From the NCBI RefSeq assembly GCF_000378205.1, contig NZ_KB899410.1:93195-157194 (forward strand): DNA of 64,000 bases, written 5' to 3'. The translations under genes and the position numbers were made by a program. Position 1 is the first letter of the stretch. The number at the start of each line of letters is the position of its first letter. The notes below the pieces were generated by a model, which had not been told where the DNA came from, searched no databases, and saw only the letters and a list, made by a program, of their open reading frames with translations. Source of the stretch: Sediminispirochaeta bajacaliforniensis DSM 16054 (lineage in GTDB: Bacteria > Spirochaetota > Spirochaetia > DSM-16054 > Sediminispirochaetaceae). Shown one piece after another: positions 51,780-59,645 of this stretch.

Positions 51780-52211
51780 ATGAAGCATTTTCTTGCCGTT
51801 GTGTTTTTTTTCGCTGCGGCAGCGCTTTTCGGCCAGTCGAATGAAATTATCGACGAAATTCTTGCCGAACCGCAACTTAGCCCGGCCGCTGCCGCCTATC
51901 TTCTTGCAAGCCTTTCCGACGGGAATCAGGCCCCTGCTACTATGGAAGAGGCTCTGGCATCGCTATCGGGTCAATTCGTCGATGTGGGAGAGAGTATCAG
52001 TGTAGGGGAGTTCGCCCTTCTCCTGCAGGAGAATCTTGACCTTCCAAGAGGTCTTGGCTCTTTGGTCTATCCGTCTCCCAGATATGCCCTACGGGATCTT
52101 CGGTTCCTCGGCATCATTCAAATGAAGGCACATCCCGCAACCCCGCTTTCCGGTGAAGGAGCTCTGCGGATTCTCGGCCGCGCCCTTGAAAAGCTGGAGG
52201 TGCGTTCATGA
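51780..52211 (+). CDS. Exported small protein with an SLH-like region, function unknown
   Basis: A 143-aa protein with a signal peptide (FLAVVFFFAAAALFGQ). The C-terminal half (ISVGEFALLLQENLDLPRGL, YALRDLRFLGIIQMKAHP, SGEGALRILGRAL) has the spacing of S-layer-homology-like repeats, which often anchor envelope proteins. The ATG follows AGGAGGAG. Its stop overlaps the barrel gene start (ATGA), so the two are translated together. Not assigned to a named family. Confidence 0.6.
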   Translation: MKHFLAVVFFFAAAALFGQSNEIIDEILAEPQLSPAAAAYLLASLSDGNQAPATMEEALASLSGQFVDVGESISVGEFALLLQENLDLPRGLGSLVYPSPRYALRDLRFLGIIQMKAHPATPLSGEGALRILGRALEKLEVRS

Positions 52212-53386
52212 AGCGTTTTGTCCGTTGTACATTCTTTGCTATGCTATTTCTGTTGCCCTTTACCACTTCACTTTTCGCTTTCGACTGGGGAGTCACCTCT
52301 TATAGCCGCCTAGGATACGAATTCGGCGGGGACGAAGATAACCAGTGGCAGAAACGGGAGAAGCTTTCTTTTTGGATGGAGGAATTCTGGTCCGGGGAGG
52401 ACAATAGCCGTTATTCGTTTCTTTTCAACGGTTACTATCTCTACAGTGATGAAGAGAGCAGCGATGATGTCGATTATCTCTTTGAAAGCGATCTTCTTGT
52501 GTTCAAGATGAAACGGCCTCAGCTGTTCGGCGGGAACGAGGTCCTTGATCTCTCGGCCGGCAGATTCCCCTTTTCCGATTCGACGAGTCTTGTGCTTTCG
52601 CATGTAGCCGACGGCTTTTCCGCAGGCCTCGACCTTTCAAAGTATATCGTAAAAACAGGGATGGGCTACACAGGATTTCGTCTGAAGCCCGTCTCAAGTG
52701 TAAATATGAGCAGTGCCGATGTCTCCGACGACGATGACGACGATATCCACTTCGCCCCGAAGCGTTTGTTCGAGATCGTCACTGCCTCGCTTCCTTCTTA
52801 CCTGCCTCGCCAGAACCTAACCGTTGAAGGGCTTTTTCAGCAGGATGTGCGTAGTGACGATGAAGATAAACTCAACAGCATCCACGCTACGGCGAAAGCC
52901 GACGGTGCGATCGTGGGCAACCTCTACTATACCCTTTCCGCCACTGAAGCCTGGAATACCTCCGACGATCTCGATGGTATGATGGTTCTTGCCGATCTGA
53001 ACTACTATGCACGGCAGCTTCTTAATTCAAGGATATCGGCTGGTATGATGTACACCGGTGAGGATTTTTTTACCGTTTCCGAGCCGACCCTCGGCCTGAT
53101 CTATTCGCCGGATGAGGCGGATCTATTGAGGCTTGATATCGGCTATTCCATACGTCCCTGGCAGGATGTATTCTCGCCGGCCTTAAAGAATCTTCAGTTC
53201 CTTGCAGCGGGGCGATTCTACCTTGTTCCCAGCGACGACTACAGCTACACAGGAACCGAGTTGGAGGGTGGTCTCACCATTCGCCCCACTTCGGATTTCG
53301 GCATGTCGTTTACCGGCGGACTCTGGGTTCCCGATGAAGGGGATACCCGGGCCCTTCTTCGCGTCGAATGTTCACTCGGCCTGTAA
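52208..53386 (+). CDS. Outer-membrane beta-barrel protein, function unknown
   Basis: A 392-aa protein with a signal peptide (FAMLFLLPFTTSLFA) and many amphipathic strands rich in aromatic residues, for example YSFLFNGYYLYSDEESSD and NLYYTLSATEAWNT. Acidic turns, including a DDDDDD run near residue 173, suggest exposed cation-binding loops. The size fits a 14-18-strand barrel. It lies between the SLH-like and FecR genes in one operon. The CHASE2/FecR setting suggests a surface assembly, but its role cannot be read. Confidence 0.65.
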   Translation: MKRFVRCTFFAMLFLLPFTTSLFAFDWGVTSYSRLGYEFGGDEDNQWQKREKLSFWMEEFWSGEDNSRYSFLFNGYYLYSDEESSDDVDYLFESDLLVFKMKRPQLFGGNEVLDLSAGRFPFSDSTSLVLSHVADGFSAGLDLSKYIVKTGMGYTGFRLKPVSSVNMSSADVSDDDDDDIHFAPKRLFEIVTASLPSYLPRQNLTVEGLFQQDVRSDDEDKLNSIHATAKADGAIVGNLYYTLSATEAWNTSDDLDGMMVLADLNYYARQLLNSRISAGMMYTGEDFFTVSEPTLGLIYSPDEADLLRLDIGYSIRPWQDVFSPALKNLQFLAAGRFYLVPSDDYSYTGTELEGGLTIRPTSDFGMSFTGGLWVPDEGDTRALLRVECSLGL

Positions 53387-53400
53387 CAAAGGAGGTATCG

Positions 53401-54075
53401 ATGAAATCCATCGTTCGTATTATTCTACTTTCGCTCTCTATGTTGCTTTTTACGGTAACGGCCTTCTCCGCGGAGAACGCTGTCGTCGAAAAGGTTTCCG
53501 GAAAGGTCGAACTGCAAAAGAATGGAGGAAGCTGGGAGGCTGTTTCCGCCGGAGATGAGATTCCCCTGGGGGCGACCATCTCTACCGGCTTTCGTTCCGA
53601 AGCACTTTTACAGGTTGGCACGGCGACCCTCGAGGTAAAGCAGCTTACCCGTATGCGTCTCGACGAGCTCATTGAAAAAGAGGGTGTAGTCAAAACCGAT
53701 CTTTTCCTTCGGGTCGGTCGGGTCAGAACCGAGGTAAAACACACCGAGGGGCTCCAGCAGGATTTCCGTCTGAGAAGCCCCGTCTCCACCGCTGCGGTAA
53801 GAGGCACGAGCTTCTCCTTCGACGGTTCAAACCTTCAAGTTTTTACCGGTCTTGTGGCCCTCACCAACAGCCTCAATCAGGTTGCCCGTGTGGCAGCCGG
53901 TGAAAATTCCTCCACCGACGGTTTCACCCTTCCTCCCGAAGGTGTCGAAGCCCTGGAGCAGATGTTCAATGTTTCCATCAACACATCGCAGATCGAAGAT
54001 TTGGTGAACCTCCTGCCCGCGGCAGACACGACAGGAAGCGTTACGATTAACTGGACCTATAGTAGTCCTCAATAA
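53401..54075 (+). CDS. Exported FecR-domain protein
   Basis: A 224-aa protein with a signal peptide (LSMLLFTVTAFSAEN) followed by a FecR domain: VVEKVSGKVELQKNGGSWEA, GATISTGFRSEALLQVGT, RTEVKHTEGLQQDFRLRSPV and STAAVRGTSFSF. This domain occurs in periplasmic sensors and in stand-alone exported proteins linked to CHASE2 cyclases. The start at 53401 has AAAGGAGG. It is 14 bases after the barrel gene and 21 bases before the first lipoprotein gene. No sigma factor or TonB receptor is nearby, so classical Fec signalling is unlikely. Confidence 0.85.
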   Translation: MKSIVRIILLSLSMLLFTVTAFSAENAVVEKVSGKVELQKNGGSWEAVSAGDEIPLGATISTGFRSEALLQVGTATLEVKQLTRMRLDELIEKEGVVKTDLFLRVGRVRTEVKHTEGLQQDFRLRSPVSTAAVRGTSFSFDGSNLQVFTGLVALTNSLNQVARVAAGENSSTDGFTLPPEGVEALEQMFNVSINTSQIEDLVNLLPAADTTGSVTINWTYSSPQ

Positions 54076-54096: not shown

Positions 54097-54579
54097 ATGA
54101 AACGCTATAGATATCTGATACCGCTTCTGGCCTCTCTGCTTATCCTTTTTCTTAGCGGATGCTATTCGGAAGCGACAACAAGCGACGGCTCGGTGAGCCT
54201 GACGGTCTCGAGTAAAGGTGATATCGGTGATTCGGGAGACGGCTATTATCTGGTGGCAAAATTCTACGATGCCGATGTGATGGACGAGCTTATTACCAAT
54301 GAAACCATCTCTGACGATGGATATGGATATTATATAAAATATAATTCCTCCTTACCGAATCCTTCGATGATCTATGCCGATTATCTTGCAGTCGAGGCAA
54401 GTTCCGGTTCTTTTACGGTGCCTTTTCTTGCGCCTAAAAAGTATCGATTACTTCTTGAATACTATATTTACTATGAAGGCGAGTCTCCTTCCATAGATGC
54501 TGCCGGTGTTTCGGATGCTTTCACGGTCAATGCTGGGGAAACATCATCAGTTTCTGTTGAGCTATTATTTTATTCCTAA
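54097..54579 (+). CDS. Lipoprotein of unknown function, paralogue 1
   Basis: A 160-aa lipoprotein. MKRYRYLIPLLASLLILFLS leads to the lipobox cysteine (LSGC, Cys ~22). The mature part is rich in Ser, Tyr, Asp and Gly, contains ISDDGYGYYIKYNSS, and ends with strand-like VNAGETSSVSVELLFYS. The second lipoprotein gene downstream is a clear paralogue (shared GDIGDSG or GDVGDSG, YYL/YYF, APKKYRLLLE/APKRYRLLLE, FTVNAGETSSVSVEL/FIVNSGETTPVSVAL). It probably continues the FecR operon. Confidence 0.7.
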   Translation: MKRYRYLIPLLASLLILFLSGCYSEATTSDGSVSLTVSSKGDIGDSGDGYYLVAKFYDADVMDELITNETISDDGYGYYIKYNSSLPNPSMIYADYLAVEASSGSFTVPFLAPKKYRLLLEYYIYYEGESPSIDAAGVSDAFTVNAGETSSVSVELLFYS

Positions 54580-54769: not shown

Positions 54770-55285
54770 ATGAAAATAAATAGATATCTAATACCGCTTC
54801 TGGTCCCGTTGCTTATCCTTATCTTCAGCGGATGCTATTCGGAGACGGTAACAAGTGATGGCTCGGTGACCCTGATAATCAGCAGCAAGGGGGATGTTGG
54901 TGATTCGGGAGCGGGGTATTATTTTAGGGCGGAATTTTATGATGAGAACGTGATGGATGGGCTACTTTACAATGGAACTATCACTACTGATGATGCGAAT
55001 GGCGGCTCTATCTACTATGACTCCTCCCTTTTACCAAGCCCTTTAGTGCGCTATACCAATTTTATTGGGGGTACTAATGATCCAGTTCCATCTGAGGGGT
55101 CCTTTACCGTGTCTTCCCTTGCCCCCAAACGCTACCGGCTTCTGCTTGAGCAATGTCGCTACTCTGAAACAGGAGAGGCTGAGCCCCTCGTCATTGAAAG
55201 GGCTGGAATTTCCGATGCCTTTATAGTGAATTCCGGTGAAACCACACCTGTTTCTGTTGCATTATTAACGGCTTCGGTTCAATAG
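54770..55285 (+). CDS. Lipoprotein of unknown function, paralogue 2
   Basis: A 171-aa paralogue of the preceding lipoprotein, with lipobox IFSGC and the same central and C-terminal motifs. The loop regions are longer (TITTDDANGGSIYYD, GTNDPVPSEGS). A good Shine-Dalgarno AAAGGAG lies 17-18 bases upstream, but it best serves an earlier ATG that opens a seven-codon frame overlapping this start. Compared with paralogue 1, about nine bases seem inserted at the start. The 190 bases between the copies contain only a weak GCGGGT/ACCCGC hairpin. Confidence 0.7.
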   Translation: MKINRYLIPLLVPLLILIFSGCYSETVTSDGSVTLIISSKGDVGDSGAGYYFRAEFYDENVMDGLLYNGTITTDDANGGSIYYDSSLLPSPLVRYTNFIGGTNDPVPSEGSFTVSSLAPKRYRLLLEQCRYSETGEAEPLVIERAGISDAFIVNSGETTPVSVALLTASVQ

Positions 55286-55297
55286 CATGCTTTCCCA

Positions 55298-55322
55298 TAG
55301 TGTTTTGAATCCTGGTGGTGAT
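55298..55322 (+). repeat. Orphan end of the TA-flanked inverted-repeat family
   Basis: TAGTGTTTTGAATCCTGG followed by TGGTGAT matches the left end at 2864 in 20 of 25 positions and shares the GTG length variant with it. It lies 13 bases after the lipoprotein stop and immediately before the truncated nucleotidyltransferase. No opposite end was found nearby. Confidence 0.6.
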
Positions 55323-55529
55323 CTGGTTATATCGATTGCTTCAGGGCGCTATACAGAAGAATCTGACTTGGATATAGCGATAATTGGTCTTGAGAAGAAA
55401 AAGTTTTTTCAGGTGTACGGTGAACTCCTCAGCTGCGTGAAACGACCAGTGGATATGGTTGGATTGGATTATCATACGGATTTCTCAAGCCAAATAAAAA
55501 AAGAAGGTGCACTTATTCGGGTGGTGTAA
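55323..55529 (+). pseudogene. 5'-truncated MNT-type nucleotidyltransferase
   Basis: The remaining codons give ASGRYTEESDLDIAIIGL, matching the active-site GSxxxGxxxxxSDxDl region of minimal nucleotidyltransferases (MNT, the HEPN-partner antitoxin family). It continues to a normal-looking C-terminus, KRPVDMVGL...KKEGALIRVV. The glycine-serine start of the motif and about 30 N-terminal residues are missing, replaced by repeat-family sequence. An ATG at 55287 keeps the frame open through the repeat, so an 80-aa protein could still be made, but it lacks the catalytic GS. No HEPN partner is adjacent. Confidence 0.7.
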
Positions 55530-55666
55530 TTGAGTGAGAAAAAGATAAATAGATAATGCTACAACGCTAATCGAAGAATTGAAGAAACAGCTTATCTAAA
55601 CTTTAATAGAAGGGATAACTATTTTCCCCTTGACTTCCCCTACCATTCTCCGTGTTAATAAGAGCA

Positions 55667-57079
55667 ATGGGATCTTCGTCACATAGCCATCAGAGCCTTG
55701 CCATGCTAACCTGCGGGCGTCCCGAGGTTTTACGCGGGGCACTCGACTCTCTATCGGCGGAGACGGAAGGTGTTCCTATAGGCCCAATCACCGTCTACGA
55801 CGATAGCCGGGAGGCTTCTATCCGGAGTGTCAACGAATCGATTGTTCACTCCTTTGCCGCCCAAAGCGGTCTTGTGCTTTCCTATGAGACGACTCAAAAT
55901 CTCTCCCCGGAAGGGTCGGTACAGAAGCAATCAGCCTTTGCCCTCGGCCTTCGCCCCTTTCATCATGCTCCTGCAATGCCTGGGGCCGCCCGTAATGCGA
56001 TTCTCCTTTCCTCTGTCGGAAAAAAAGTCCTCTCTTTCGACGATGATATTCGATTTTTACTGCGAGAGCCTCGTTTTACTATGGAAGAAACATCACCGCT
56101 TCCCTTTGCCTTTGCCGCTTCGGGAACAGAGTCGTTTCCCGATGCTGTCTCGAGGCCGCTTGTTTCCGGAGCGGCCCGCTGTTTCGAACTGTTCGACCAC
56201 GTCTTGGGACGGACGCCTCAATGGGGTGATGGTATGGCGGAAGGGGATGGCGAGTCAGCAGCGGACCTGAAGGGCCCGGTTCGTGCGGCCATGGCCGGCA
56301 TTTGCGGGGACAGGTGGTTTTCATCTCCCCTTGCGATCTTCGATACCCAGCCATTTCTTCGAAAACGGGCATGGCCCAACAGGCGCAGTTATCGGAGGGC
56401 GGCTATCGATCCCGTCGCCCTTCTTCTTGCTCCGGAGCTTTCCTACACCTCCCATCCCTTTTTTATTGCCTCGTGTTACGGTTTCGATGCCTCGGATATC
56501 CTGCCTCCCTTTTTCCCTCATATCCGAAATGAGGATGGGGTATGGGCTTTCCTTCTTCGCGCCTCTTATCCCGATGCTCCCATTGCCCATCTCCCCTTCG
56601 CTTTCGAACATAAGAGGGGAATCCATCCCTCCTTTCGGATGGAACACCGAGCTTCCGGTATTGGAGCGGGAACGGTCTTGCAGCGTTTGCTTTCTTTTTT
56701 TGCCGATGAACTAAAGGCTCCCGAGGCTGGCGAGCGGCTTGTGGCCCTGGGCTCTCGGCTTTCCGGGGCGGCGTCCCTTTCGTTGCGACAATGGAAACGT
56801 CTCCTTTTGGAGCTTCACCTGAAACATGAGGGGGCCATGGTCGCAAGACTTGAGGCCGACCTCGATCGTTCCGGTGGAAGCCCCGGGTTCTGGGCGAAGG
56901 ATCTTCGATCCTTCCTTGACCGCTATCTCGACGAGCTTCCCGCCTCTGCACCCAGCCTTCCCCGTGAATTCCAGCACCTGGGAGATGAAGGCGAATCAGC
57001 CTTTCAACGATTTGCAGGCTCCTGTGGCGAACTGCTTAGTGCCTGGCCTGAGATCTGGAAAGGACGGGCCTGCTTATGA
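55667..57079 (+). CDS. Glycosyltransferase-like protein of unknown function, operon gene 1
   Basis: A ~470-aa protein with a GT-A-like N-terminal half: LAMLTCGRPEVLRGALDSL, ITVYDDSREASIRSVNES, GAARNAILL, and a DxD-type motif LSFDDDIRFLL near residue 125. It is paralogous to the next gene, with shared order of motifs and a shared C-terminus (SPGFWAKDLRSFLDRYLDEL, PREFQHL, AWPEIWKG). No signal peptide or membrane helix is present. A nucleotide-sugar-dependent transfer is likely, but donor and acceptor are unknown. ATG at 55667 with a weak AAGAG. Its TGA overlaps the next ATG. Confidence 0.6.
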   Translation: MGSSSHSHQSLAMLTCGRPEVLRGALDSLSAETEGVPIGPITVYDDSREASIRSVNESIVHSFAAQSGLVLSYETTQNLSPEGSVQKQSAFALGLRPFHHAPAMPGAARNAILLSSVGKKVLSFDDDIRFLLREPRFTMEETSPLPFAFAASGTESFPDAVSRPLVSGAARCFELFDHVLGRTPQWGDGMAEGDGESAADLKGPVRAAMAGICGDRWFSSPLAIFDTQPFLRKRAWPNRRSYRRAAIDPVALLLAPELSYTSHPFFIASCYGFDASDILPPFFPHIRNEDGVWAFLLRASYPDAPIAHLPFAFEHKRGIHPSFRMEHRASGIGAGTVLQRLLSFFADELKAPEAGERLVALGSRLSGAASLSLRQWKRLLLELHLKHEGAMVARLEADLDRSGGSPGFWAKDLRSFLDRYLDELPASAPSLPREFQHLGDEGESAFQRFAGSCGELLSAWPEIWKGRACL

Positions 57080-58806
57080 GCGATCGCTATTTCCCTGCGC
57101 ACTGTAAGGCATTTCCTGCCTCCTCTTCGACGGTGATGCTTCTCAATCTCAATGATAATTCCGTGTATCGGGCCTCGCCCTTCGAATCGAGGCTCTTCTT
57201 TGCCTTGCGGGGCTGCCGGAGTGTGGAGGAGCATATTGGTTTTCTGGTTCGAAGCACCGGGGAACGCTTTCCCGTTTCTGCCGTGGCCGATCGGTTTAGG
57301 TGCTGGATTGCCGCAGGGCTTCTGCGCCCCGAGAAGCTTTTGCACTATCCTTCTGCAGCGGCTTCTGCAAAACCGGGAGAGGCAGCGCTGACGGCGGCGG
57401 TGGTGACTGCACGGGGGCCTGAGACGCTACGGCCGTGGCTCGAGAGTCGAATCACTTCGTCGGCCTTTGCCGACCGAAAAATTCCTTTTCTTATATGCGA
57501 TGATAATCAAGATGCCTCTGCCTCTGAACAGAATCGGCACCTTGCCGAGGCTTTGGGGGCGGTTTATCCGGGAACAATTCGTTATATTGGAAGGGATGAA
57601 CGTCGGCGTTTTGCCGAGCGGCTTTCGGCATCGGCTGATAAGGCGGGGATCGATCGACAGGTGGTGGAATTCCTTGTGTACGGCCCTTCCGAAAGGGCGG
57701 CCTTATCGACTGTTGGGGCAAATCGAAACCTTGCCATGCTCCTTGCTGCGGGAGACCATCTGCTGATAAGTGACGACGATCTGTCCTACCGCTGTTATAC
57801 CTCTGCACATGCAGAGGCCCTTTTCCCCTCTTTTGTTTCCGATTTTCGACCAAGCATGAATTTCTTCCCCACGATCGAGGCCCTGCAGGAAGGGCTGGTT
57901 CATCTTGCCGACTATGACCTTCCCGCAGTGGCCATGCGCTTGTTTTCTTCTCCCCAGGAGGTAGGCGCCTGGTCTTTCGAAGCACTTTCTTCTTCTTTTG
58001 CTGCGATTTTGGAACGAGGAAGCGCCCGCATCGGTGCGATAAGTGCGGGATACGCAGGGGCCCGCTGGTTTTCTTTTCCCTGTTTTCCTGCTCTCCAGAG
58101 GTTTTTTTGCAATGATAATTATTTTCTTGAAAAGAAGGATTATGAGGCAATAGCGGAAAACGGCCTCAATCTCACGCTTGCCGACGGCATGGTTGCAAGT
58201 GATTCCTCATTTCTTCAGGGAGGAACCCTTGCCTTGGCTGCAGACAGCGGCGCTCCACCCTTTTTCCCTCTCGATCGCCACGAGGATCAATCCTTTGCCC
58301 ACCTGTTCAGGGCCCTTGAACGGGATCTTCTTTTTTGTCATCTTCCCGTCGCCCTTTACCATGATCCCTCGAAGAAACTTCCCTTTGGCCGGGCGCTTTT
58401 GGATTCCGACCTTGGCCTGGGACGAATGTTTCTCCTGATTGTCGACGACCTCGGAAGCTGCTTGCTTGCAGAATCTGCTGCCGGACGAAGAGGCGAGCTC
58501 GTCAGGGCGCTGAGAGAGATTGCAGGATTGCCGGATTCCGCTTTTCGACTTTATCTGCGCCATCTTGCCGAGGCCTATATCGATGCGAGGCTTAGGAGCG
58601 TTGATTTGTTGCTCGATCGCTATCATGGTGAACCTGCTTGGTGGGCCGACGATCTTAGGGCCTATCGTGAATCGATGCTTCGTGAGAAGCAGGAGCCCGT
58701 CGCTGCCCTTCCTCCTGGTTTTGCCGATTGGCTGGGGCGTTATGCTGCATCCCTTGACGTCTGGCCTGGCTTGCAGAGGCTTGCACAGGAGATAAGCGTG
58801 CTATGA
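57076..58806 (+). CDS. Glycosyltransferase-like protein with a PqqD-like N-terminus, operon gene 2
   Basis: A 576-aa protein. Residues ~12-80 (SSTVMLLNLNDNSVYRASPF, RLFFALRGCRSVEEHIGFLV, then a helix ending WIAAGLLRP) follow the strand-strand-helix-winged pattern of PqqD-type peptide-recognition domains. Residues ~100-270 are GT-A-like (AAVVTARGPETLRPWLESR, FLICDDNQDASASEQNRH, TVGANRNLAMLLAAGDH, ISDDDLSYR with the DxD motif). The C-terminus repeats the gene 1 pattern (EPAWWADDLRAYRESML, PPGFADWL). The architecture suggests a glycosyltransferase that recognises a peptide or protein. Overlaps of four bases with both neighbours show a single operon. Confidence 0.6.
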   Translation: MSDRYFPAHCKAFPASSSTVMLLNLNDNSVYRASPFESRLFFALRGCRSVEEHIGFLVRSTGERFPVSAVADRFRCWIAAGLLRPEKLLHYPSAAASAKPGEAALTAAVVTARGPETLRPWLESRITSSAFADRKIPFLICDDNQDASASEQNRHLAEALGAVYPGTIRYIGRDERRRFAERLSASADKAGIDRQVVEFLVYGPSERAALSTVGANRNLAMLLAAGDHLLISDDDLSYRCYTSAHAEALFPSFVSDFRPSMNFFPTIEALQEGLVHLADYDLPAVAMRLFSSPQEVGAWSFEALSSSFAAILERGSARIGAISAGYAGARWFSFPCFPALQRFFCNDNYFLEKKDYEAIAENGLNLTLADGMVASDSSFLQGGTLALAADSGAPPFFPLDRHEDQSFAHLFRALERDLLFCHLPVALYHDPSKKLPFGRALLDSDLGLGRMFLLIVDDLGSCLLAESAAGRRGELVRALREIAGLPDSAFRLYLRHLAEAYIDARLRSVDLLLDRYHGEPAWWADDLRAYRESMLREKQEPVAALPPGFADWLGRYAASLDVWPGLQRLAQEISVL

Positions 58807-59645
58807 TGAAGCGCGGATGTACGACTGCCTTGCTTGTGTGCCTGCTGCTCCTCTCTTCCTGTGCCAGCTTTTCAGGACGGTCGAAAGAGGTCGGACTGCC
58901 CCGGGATCTGCCCCCCCTGTCCTCTGCGCGATCTCTCGGAACGGGGGTTTCGTACCTTTCCTACCAAGGGGAAAAGGACTTTCCGCCATTCCATCTTTTG
59001 ATTATAGTCCCCTCGCAAGGGGCCCAGGTCCTTCCTCTTGCTCCCTTTCCCCATGGAACGGATGTTGCGAAGGCCTTTCGTTCGGCTCTTTCTCAGCATC
59101 CCGAAGCCGTTGCCGCCTTTACCGGTGCTCCTTTCGTGAGCGTGGGAGGGGCCGGATCGAAGAGACTTGAGGCCATTGGTTCTTGGCTGGTGGATGGCCG
59201 GGAGTATGGGGCAAGGCAGCGGCAGTGGGGCGTGCTTTTTCGTGATGAAACAGGCTATGGGATAGTCTCTGCCGACGGGGATGTTCCTGATCATCCCCTC
59301 TGGCTTGTCGGAACCTATTTGCCCATATTGAAATCCGGGGATACCATCGGCATCCATGGCCGGCGGCACGCCCGTACCGCCTTCGGTATCGGCGGCAGCA
59401 AGGCTTCCGCTTCTCTTTTTGTCCTTGTTGTTGAAGGCGATTCACTCTTTCAGCCGGGGCTTACAAGCCGGGAAACTGCCGGAATCTTGAGCCATTACGG
59501 GGCCAGAGAGGGGATAAATCTGGACGGTGGTGATGCCGCCGCCATCGCCTTTATAGACAATGGCGGGAAAAAGCCTATCCGCTTTTACAGGGGAAAGCGG
59601 CGTCACCTTCCCTGTTATTTCATCGTCCTTTCGGGGCAGGGGTAA
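58803..59645 (+). CDS. Phosphodiester glycosidase-like (NAGPA domain) lipoprotein
   Basis: A 280-aa lipoprotein with lipobox LLLSSCASF (Cys ~19-21). The C-terminal half has the NAGPA fold signatures: RTAFGIGGSKASASLFVLVV, LTSRETAGILSHYGAREGIN, the LDGGDAAAIAF motif near residue 238 (LDGGGSS-like), and a terminal RHLPCYFIVLS. The founding enzyme removes GlcNAc from a phosphodiester; bacterial relatives act on sugar-phosphate polymers. It is translated from inside the stop of gene 2, so the operon couples a cytoplasmic transfer with an outer-envelope glycosidase-like step. Confidence 0.75.
   Translation: MMKRGCTTALLVCLLLLSSCASFSGRSKEVGLPRDLPPLSSARSLGTGVSYLSYQGEKDFPPFHLLIIVPSQGAQVLPLAPFPHGTDVAKAFRSALSQHPEAVAAFTGAPFVSVGGAGSKRLEAIGSWLVDGREYGARQRQWGVLFRDETGYGIVSADGDVPDHPLWLVGTYLPILKSGDTIGIHGRRHARTAFGIGGSKASASLFVLVVEGDSLFQPGLTSRETAGILSHYGAREGINLDGGDAAAIAFIDNGGKKPIRFYRGKRRHLPCYFIVLSGQG

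Follow-up and report, generated by a model that had tools for sequence, protein, structure and literature searches.

The operon analysed here lies in a 64,000-nucleotide stretch of DNA (the window) and encodes two paralogous proteins, GT1 and GT2, with a GT-A fold and conserved active-site residues; GT2 begins with an RRE-like domain. Across the family, such genes are linked to an upstream lipoprotein gene, and the last residue of the encoded lipoprotein is enriched in Cys and Ser. Glycosylation of a peptide or protein, which was the central guess of a preliminary description of this DNA, is now the leading hypothesis. In its more specific form, that GT1 and GT2 glycosylate a co-encoded lipoprotein, most likely at its C-terminal residue, we give the proposal an even chance of being correct.

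Organization of the operon

The three genes of the operon are on the plus strand (Table 1), and the GT1/GT2 and GT2/NAGPA junctions are each a 4-bp ATGA overlap, in agreement with the three-gene arrangement described earlier. GT1 was read from its GTG codon; the preliminary description had used an in-frame ATG at 55667. GT1 and GT2 are indeed paralogues, with 28% identity (E = 1.5e-16), and no third paralogue was detected in the genome at the same threshold as the GT1-GT2 match. Pfam, NCBIfam and PDB sequence searches with GT1 and GT2 gave no useful assignment, and only the third protein of the operon has a Pfam family.

Table 1 Features of the operon and the genes upstream of it
Feature	Position	Strand	Basis or remark
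143-aa exported protein	51780..52211	+	Part of the conserved gene string
Exported protein of ~390 aa, possibly an outer-membrane barrel	52208..53386	+	
FecR-domain exported protein	53368..54075	+	PF04773; homologues at 11 other loci
LP1, small exported lipoprotein of 160 aa, candidate substrate	54097..54579	+	Lipobox FLSGC; terminal Ser codon 54574-54576
LP2, paralogue of LP1, nearest lipoprotein 5' of GT1	54770..55285	+	61% identical to LP1
GT1, GT-A-fold protein without RRE domain	55652..57079	+	GTG start; paralogy to GT2, motifs
GT2, RRE-fused GT-A-fold protein of 576 aa	57076..58806	+	AlphaFold model
RRE/PqqD-like domain, GT2 residues 1-88	57076..57339	+	Profile and structure comparison
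GT2 catalytic domain, residues 101-571	57376..58788	+	VIA Z, column counts
GT2 active-site codons	DDD 57772-57780; R401 58276-58278; D404 58285-58287; H429 58360-58362	+	
NAGPA-family phosphodiester glycosidase-like lipoprotein, accessory	58803..59645	+	PF09992, lipobox LSSC

The third protein matches the NAGPA family with an E-value of 7.9e-9 and 36.4 bits (gathering cut-off, 25 bits); this match and the lipobox bear out its description as a phosphodiester-glycosidase-like lipoprotein. Its proposed place in the machinery as an exported glycosidase was not supported. Among the loci searched, a NAGPA gene adjoins the GT genes only in this genus, namely in the window and in locus L012 of genome G001, and NAGPA was therefore rejected as a core part of the GT system.

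An 80-aa ORF between LP2 and GT1 (55287-55529) matches a Polbeta nucleotidyltransferase family (PF18765, E = 4e-8). Because G001 has just 66 bp at this position, the ORF appears to be an insertion or a remnant.

The RRE-type domain and the GT75-like catalytic domain

Single-sequence Pfam scans of GT2 and its homologues gave no match to PF05402 (PqqD) over the cut-off. We compared a profile of 14 homologous N-termini with a profile of 15 PqqD sequences recovered by PF05402, the kind of check proposed in the preliminary description. The comparison gave a PqqD match with an HH probability of 94.9 and a score of 42.9, whereas 60 column-shuffled PqqD profiles scored 15.3 or lower. AlphaFold modelled the domain with a pLDDT of 89 as a three-stranded sheet followed by three helices, which is the winged-helix RRE fold. 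Foldseek matches to this model had weak E-values (0.09 and up), and the leading rows were mostly RRE proteins. The highest VIA Z scores, which are on a DALI-like scale and are not decisive below about 8, were obtained with TigE (10.0), MibB (8.8), MccB (8.7), TbtB (8.1), and TbiB1 (7.7), all of which are RiPP enzymes. The lower rows included the ribosomal oxygenases MINA53 and NO66, which have winged domains of the same fold. Similarity to PqqD was thus found in both profile and structure searches, as expected from the PqqD-type winged domain that had been attributed to GT2, and the N-terminus of this protein is a predicted PqqD/RRE-type domain.

The fold closest to GT2 residues 101-571 is that of GT75, the family of NDP-pyranose mutases and reversibly glycosylated polypeptides. 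MtdL gave a VIA Z of 22.7 over 312 residues (3.6 Å, 16% identity), and rice UAM2 was the next GT75 match with a Z of 21.7; matches outside GT75 were lower (chondroitin polymerase, 16.0; polypeptide GalNAc-transferases, ~15). The full GT2 model, predicted with 21 homologues as input, had a pLDDT of 86.7 and shows a GT-A fold with a DxD metal motif and a predicted C-terminal metal-binding His. In a 21-member alignment, DDD and H429 were conserved in all members and R401 and D404 in 20 of 21. The corresponding motifs of GT1, numbered from the GTG start, are DDD (130-132), RNED (292-295), and H320, and both proteins retain the full active-site set. The predicted active site is intact in both, and the fold match of GT2 and the conserved DDD, R..D, and H uphold the earlier assignment of GT1 and GT2 as GT-A-like proteins.

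In MtdL, the metal is handled by Asp109-Asp110-Asp111 together with His287 and the phosphate by Arg257, and Asp260 has been proposed as the base (PMC9937993). The DDD, R401, D404, and H429 of the present family match these residues in order and spacing, which is an argument from motifs, and the likeness in fold extends over ~310 residues. However, the family is 11-18% identical to GT75 proteins and has an added RRE, and Pfam gave no match to PF03214 (GT75) in GT1, GT2, or their homologues. We also sought GT75 proper (PF03214) in 60 related genomes and found none. A further difference concerns Arg159 of MtdL, which is self-glycosylated: no Arg column is invariant between DDD and R401, as judged by the 21-member alignment. 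This residue seems to be absent from the family at large, which makes an outside acceptor plausible.

The GT family was detected in 14 of 393 Spirochaetota genomes with our first profile and in 30 of the 395 Spirochaetia genomes sampled with a better one. Outside Spirochaetota it occurs in two Ktedonobacter genomes and a few Acidobacteriota; a search for related loci with a single GT protein of the window found nothing, and the Ktedonobacter and Acidobacteriota loci were recovered with a sub-alignment as the query. In the GT tree, in which several deep branches are weak and some proteins labelled as RRE-less are truncated at contig edges, the GT1-type proteins fall into one well-supported, mostly RRE-less clade. 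Since this clade includes the RRE-bearing L104_1411, GT1 probably lost its RRE domain following duplication.

Upstream lipoproteins and their C-terminal residue

The recurrent partner across the family is the gene directly 5' of the GT gene, and its product is usually exported. A lipobox was present in this gene at 18 of 31 loci, as opposed to 13 of 305 background ORFs drawn from random stretches of two genomes (p = 9e-14), with signal peptides and lipoboxes called by a crude pattern and ORFs called by length. The last residue of the partner was Cys or Ser at 22 of 32 loci (11 Cys, 11 Ser), compared with 34 of the 305 background ORFs (11%; p = 3e-12) and 16 of 120 exported-like ORFs (p = 2e-9). 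The partner in L102 (...TMFDS), which was overlooked by the ORF picker, was added by hand after inspection.

The pattern of Cys or Ser after aromatic residues was first seen in 14 genomes and was noted before testing. At held-out loci, which were fetched after the pattern had been noticed, 12 of 16 partners ended in Cys or Ser (p = 4e-9), and a Cys end alone occurred in 6 of 16 against a background of 1% (p = 7e-9). When the partners, whose families share ancestry, were clustered by similarity, the number with a Cys or Ser end was 6 of 11 clusters (p = 6e-4). The GT tree shows repeated swaps between Cys and Ser, with 16 changes among Cys, Ser, and other residues. The tails are also rich in aromatic residues (1.8 vs. 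0.8 in the eight residues preceding the last). About one third of the partners have a different last residue (Y, G, M, Q, W, and others).

By eye, the partners are diverse and include small Ig-like lipoproteins, DUF1573-like repeats, and propeller-like proteins. RRE-less homologues also adjoin such lipoproteins (L016, L041, L102, L107, and L119); because RRE-less singletons keep these partners, the RRE is not required everywhere for the pairing. The earlier suggestion of a protein target, possibly one of the adjacent lipoproteins, fits well with a lipoprotein directly upstream and with the Cys/Ser C-termini.

This and some related genera share a longer string of genes, in which a 143-aa exported protein, the ~390-aa exported protein, a FecR-domain protein, and a small lipoprotein precede the GTs. 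Homologues of the ~390-aa protein were found in L012, L013, L014, L101, L102, L103, L104, L110, and L117. A divergent gene that often accompanies this string is, we take it, of the CHASE2/cyclase type. In L101 (1677-7534; G724), the 152-aa/OMP-like/FecR/lipoprotein string occurs as a tandem duplicate just 5' of the GT pair, and only the GT-adjacent copy contains a Cys-ending lipoprotein (...TPTFIC vs. ...HLSNT).

In the window, LP1 ends in ...VELLFYS and its orthologue in G001 (L012, 12842-13336) in ...VELLYIC; this pair (FYS vs. YIC) is the strongest single case of a swap between Cys and Ser. Lipoproteins homologous to LP1 lie immediately 5' of the GTs in G008, G033, and G724. LP2 ends in ...LLTASVQ, and its counterpart in G001 ends in AEG. 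LP1 is for this reason the better substrate candidate, and it is a counterpoint to our preferred reading that the nearest lipoprotein in the window has no Cys/Ser tail and that only LP1 has one.

Exported proteins other than the direct partner lie near the GT in L036 (4175-10297; G126); they terminate in ...FLSYS, ...FVYVS, and ...FFDNC, as though several substrates shared a single GT. In L061 (10172-11238; G548, Acidobacteriota), the RRE-GT is preceded by two exported proteins, one of them Cys-rich (...GSHCW) and the other thioredoxin-like in appearance, as judged by eye.

Based on these features, we propose that GT1 and GT2 act in the cytoplasm as metal-dependent nucleotide-sugar transferases with a GT75-like fold, and that the N-terminal RRE of the main branch of the family would grip a polypeptide substrate. 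The substrate would be the exported lipoprotein encoded with them, in the window most likely LP1, and it would be modified prior to Sec export, probably on the thiol or hydroxyl group of its C-terminal Cys or Ser. Binding and priming of the substrate may fall to GT2, and GT1, having no RRE of its own, may add to it or share the docking. NAGPA may be a genus-specific extra with the exported glycan, or something else, as its target. What we infer from the sequences and models is that the lipoprotein is the acceptor and its terminal residue the modified site, together with the order of events and the sugar. Cys and Ser are located at the extreme C-terminus and are interchangeable, which suggests that they are the acceptor; glycocin F, in which Cys43 at the C-terminus bears an S-GlcNAc (PMC5890784), is a precedent.

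A lipoprotein acceptor could also be modified elsewhere. The linkage to lipoproteins is as strong as the tail signal, and ~10 of the 32 partners are without a Cys/Ser tail, both of which would suit glycosylation of the adjacent lipoprotein at an internal Ser, Thr, Asn, or Tyr. The Cys/Ser C-terminus would then be a recognition tag, with the aromatic-rich tail as a possible docking strand for the RRE, or would have an unrelated role, for example in disulfide bonding or as a terminal strand cap. However, a docking tag has no obvious need for Cys or Ser as its final residue, and the interchange of the two points to a nucleophile. We consider modification at internal residues rather unlikely.

Sugar-related and RiPP-like neighbourhoods, and comparison with known systems

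The proteins closest in fold, MtdL and UAM2, are pyranose/furanose mutases, and the family may instead consist of mutases or other GT75-like sugar-nucleotide enzymes. These would supply a surface glycan, the lipoprotein would be a structural component of the envelope, and the RRE-like domain would have been co-opted for regulation or assembly. In L016, L044, and L117, the GT is adjoined by a gene of the NAD-dependent sugar-nucleotide dehydratase/epimerase family, whose NCBIfam matches are not specific to one activity. Distant RRE-less homologues in G714 and G528 (Acidobacteriota) adjoin other carbohydrate enzymes. However, the RRE-bearing members have few polysaccharide genes at their flanks, the alignment shows no invariant counterpart of the self-glycosylated Arg of GT75, and fusion of an RRE to a sugar-nucleotide mutase would serve no obvious use. 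We therefore regard a purely sugar-nucleotide role as improbable. The preliminary description had named confinement of the homologues to polysaccharide loci lacking any peptide as contrary to its idea; the RRE-bearing members are not mainly found there.

Several loci contain RiPP-type genes. In Ktedonobacter, the RRE-GT is located near a peptidase-containing C39-type export ABC protein and an accessory protein, and the best NCBIfam match of the ABC protein is TIGR03796 (NHLP bacteriocin export), with an E-value of 2e-202 and a score below the equivalog cut-off. Peptides encoded at this locus include several with Gly-rich cores behind double-glycine-like leaders. In L047 (343-2939) and L048 (51-4043), both from Ktedonobacter, tandem paralogous peptides with the leader ...ELSEAELEQITG and Cys-containing cores lie near the C39-type exporter, ~3-8 kb from the RRE-GT, and the peptides and exporter possibly constitute a RiPP cluster. 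In L015 (888-3737; G037), a radical SAM gene starts 15 bp 3' of the RRE-GT, and the upstream lipoprotein ends in ...GYAVC; the radical SAM protein is related to several maturase families with modest scores. Within the section of the window that surrounds the operon, neither a small leader-bearing precursor nor a peptidase-containing exporter was seen. The resemblance of the Ktedonobacter locus to a RiPP cluster and the radical SAM gene of L015 would suit an operon that makes a small secreted glycopeptide, a true RiPP, from a precursor encoded elsewhere in the genome with the lipoproteins as bystanders, but the neighbourhood survey saw no recurrent small ORF in the Spirochaete loci examined, so that a classical precursor peptide was not borne out there, while lipoproteins recur, and we judge this very improbable.

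Glycosylation of the upstream lipoprotein is the reading we carry forward. In its general form, which we hold tentatively and at a little short of an even chance, Spirochaetota and scattered relatives would have a dedicated system in which RRE-fused GT75-fold transferases S- or O-glycosylate the C-terminal Cys or Ser of surface lipoproteins and recognize them in the manner of RiPP enzymes. The known task of RREs is to hand small peptides to tailoring enzymes. Here the domain seems to serve surface lipoproteins that are exported, and these partners bear a simple, testable mark in their final Cys or Ser. If correct, this would add a route of bacterial protein glycosylation in spirochaetes, possibly including S-glycosylation, explain lipoproteins with an unpaired cysteine at their end, and provide a compact enzyme for modifying protein C-termini. 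We found no matching report of a link between RRE/PqqD, GT, and lipoprotein, or of the partner tail, in open-access papers, and the pairing of RRE-GTs with an upstream lipoprotein appears to be new.

Among known systems, the third gene of the operon is a member of the NAGPA/phosphodiester glycosidase family (PF09992), yet it is not conserved in the GT system. Mycofactocin MftF (TIGR03965) is likewise a glycosyltransferase in a RiPP pathway, and one homologue showed a weak 58-residue match to it (E = 0.052); identity with MftF was dropped, as this match scored 12.4 bits against a cut-off of 280 bits and the window protein was unmatched. Glycocins such as glycocin F and sublancin share the transfer of sugar to Cys or Ser of a ribosomal peptide, but their substrates are small bacteriocins and not lipoproteins. 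Glycocin transferases belong to a different transferase family, and we know of none that carries an RRE. Closest in architecture are the RRE-glycosyltransferase fusions noted via RRE-Finder (PMC7470986) and the RRE fusions with PF00535 (PMC12710340), to which the passages describing them assign no function. Because such fusions have been noted before, the architecture itself is not new. As these passages present them, they share with our family the combination of an RRE and a GT-A-type transferase in one protein; in contrast, most members here have no Pfam GT match and a fold nearest to GT75, and their partner is a surface lipoprotein instead of a small precursor peptide.
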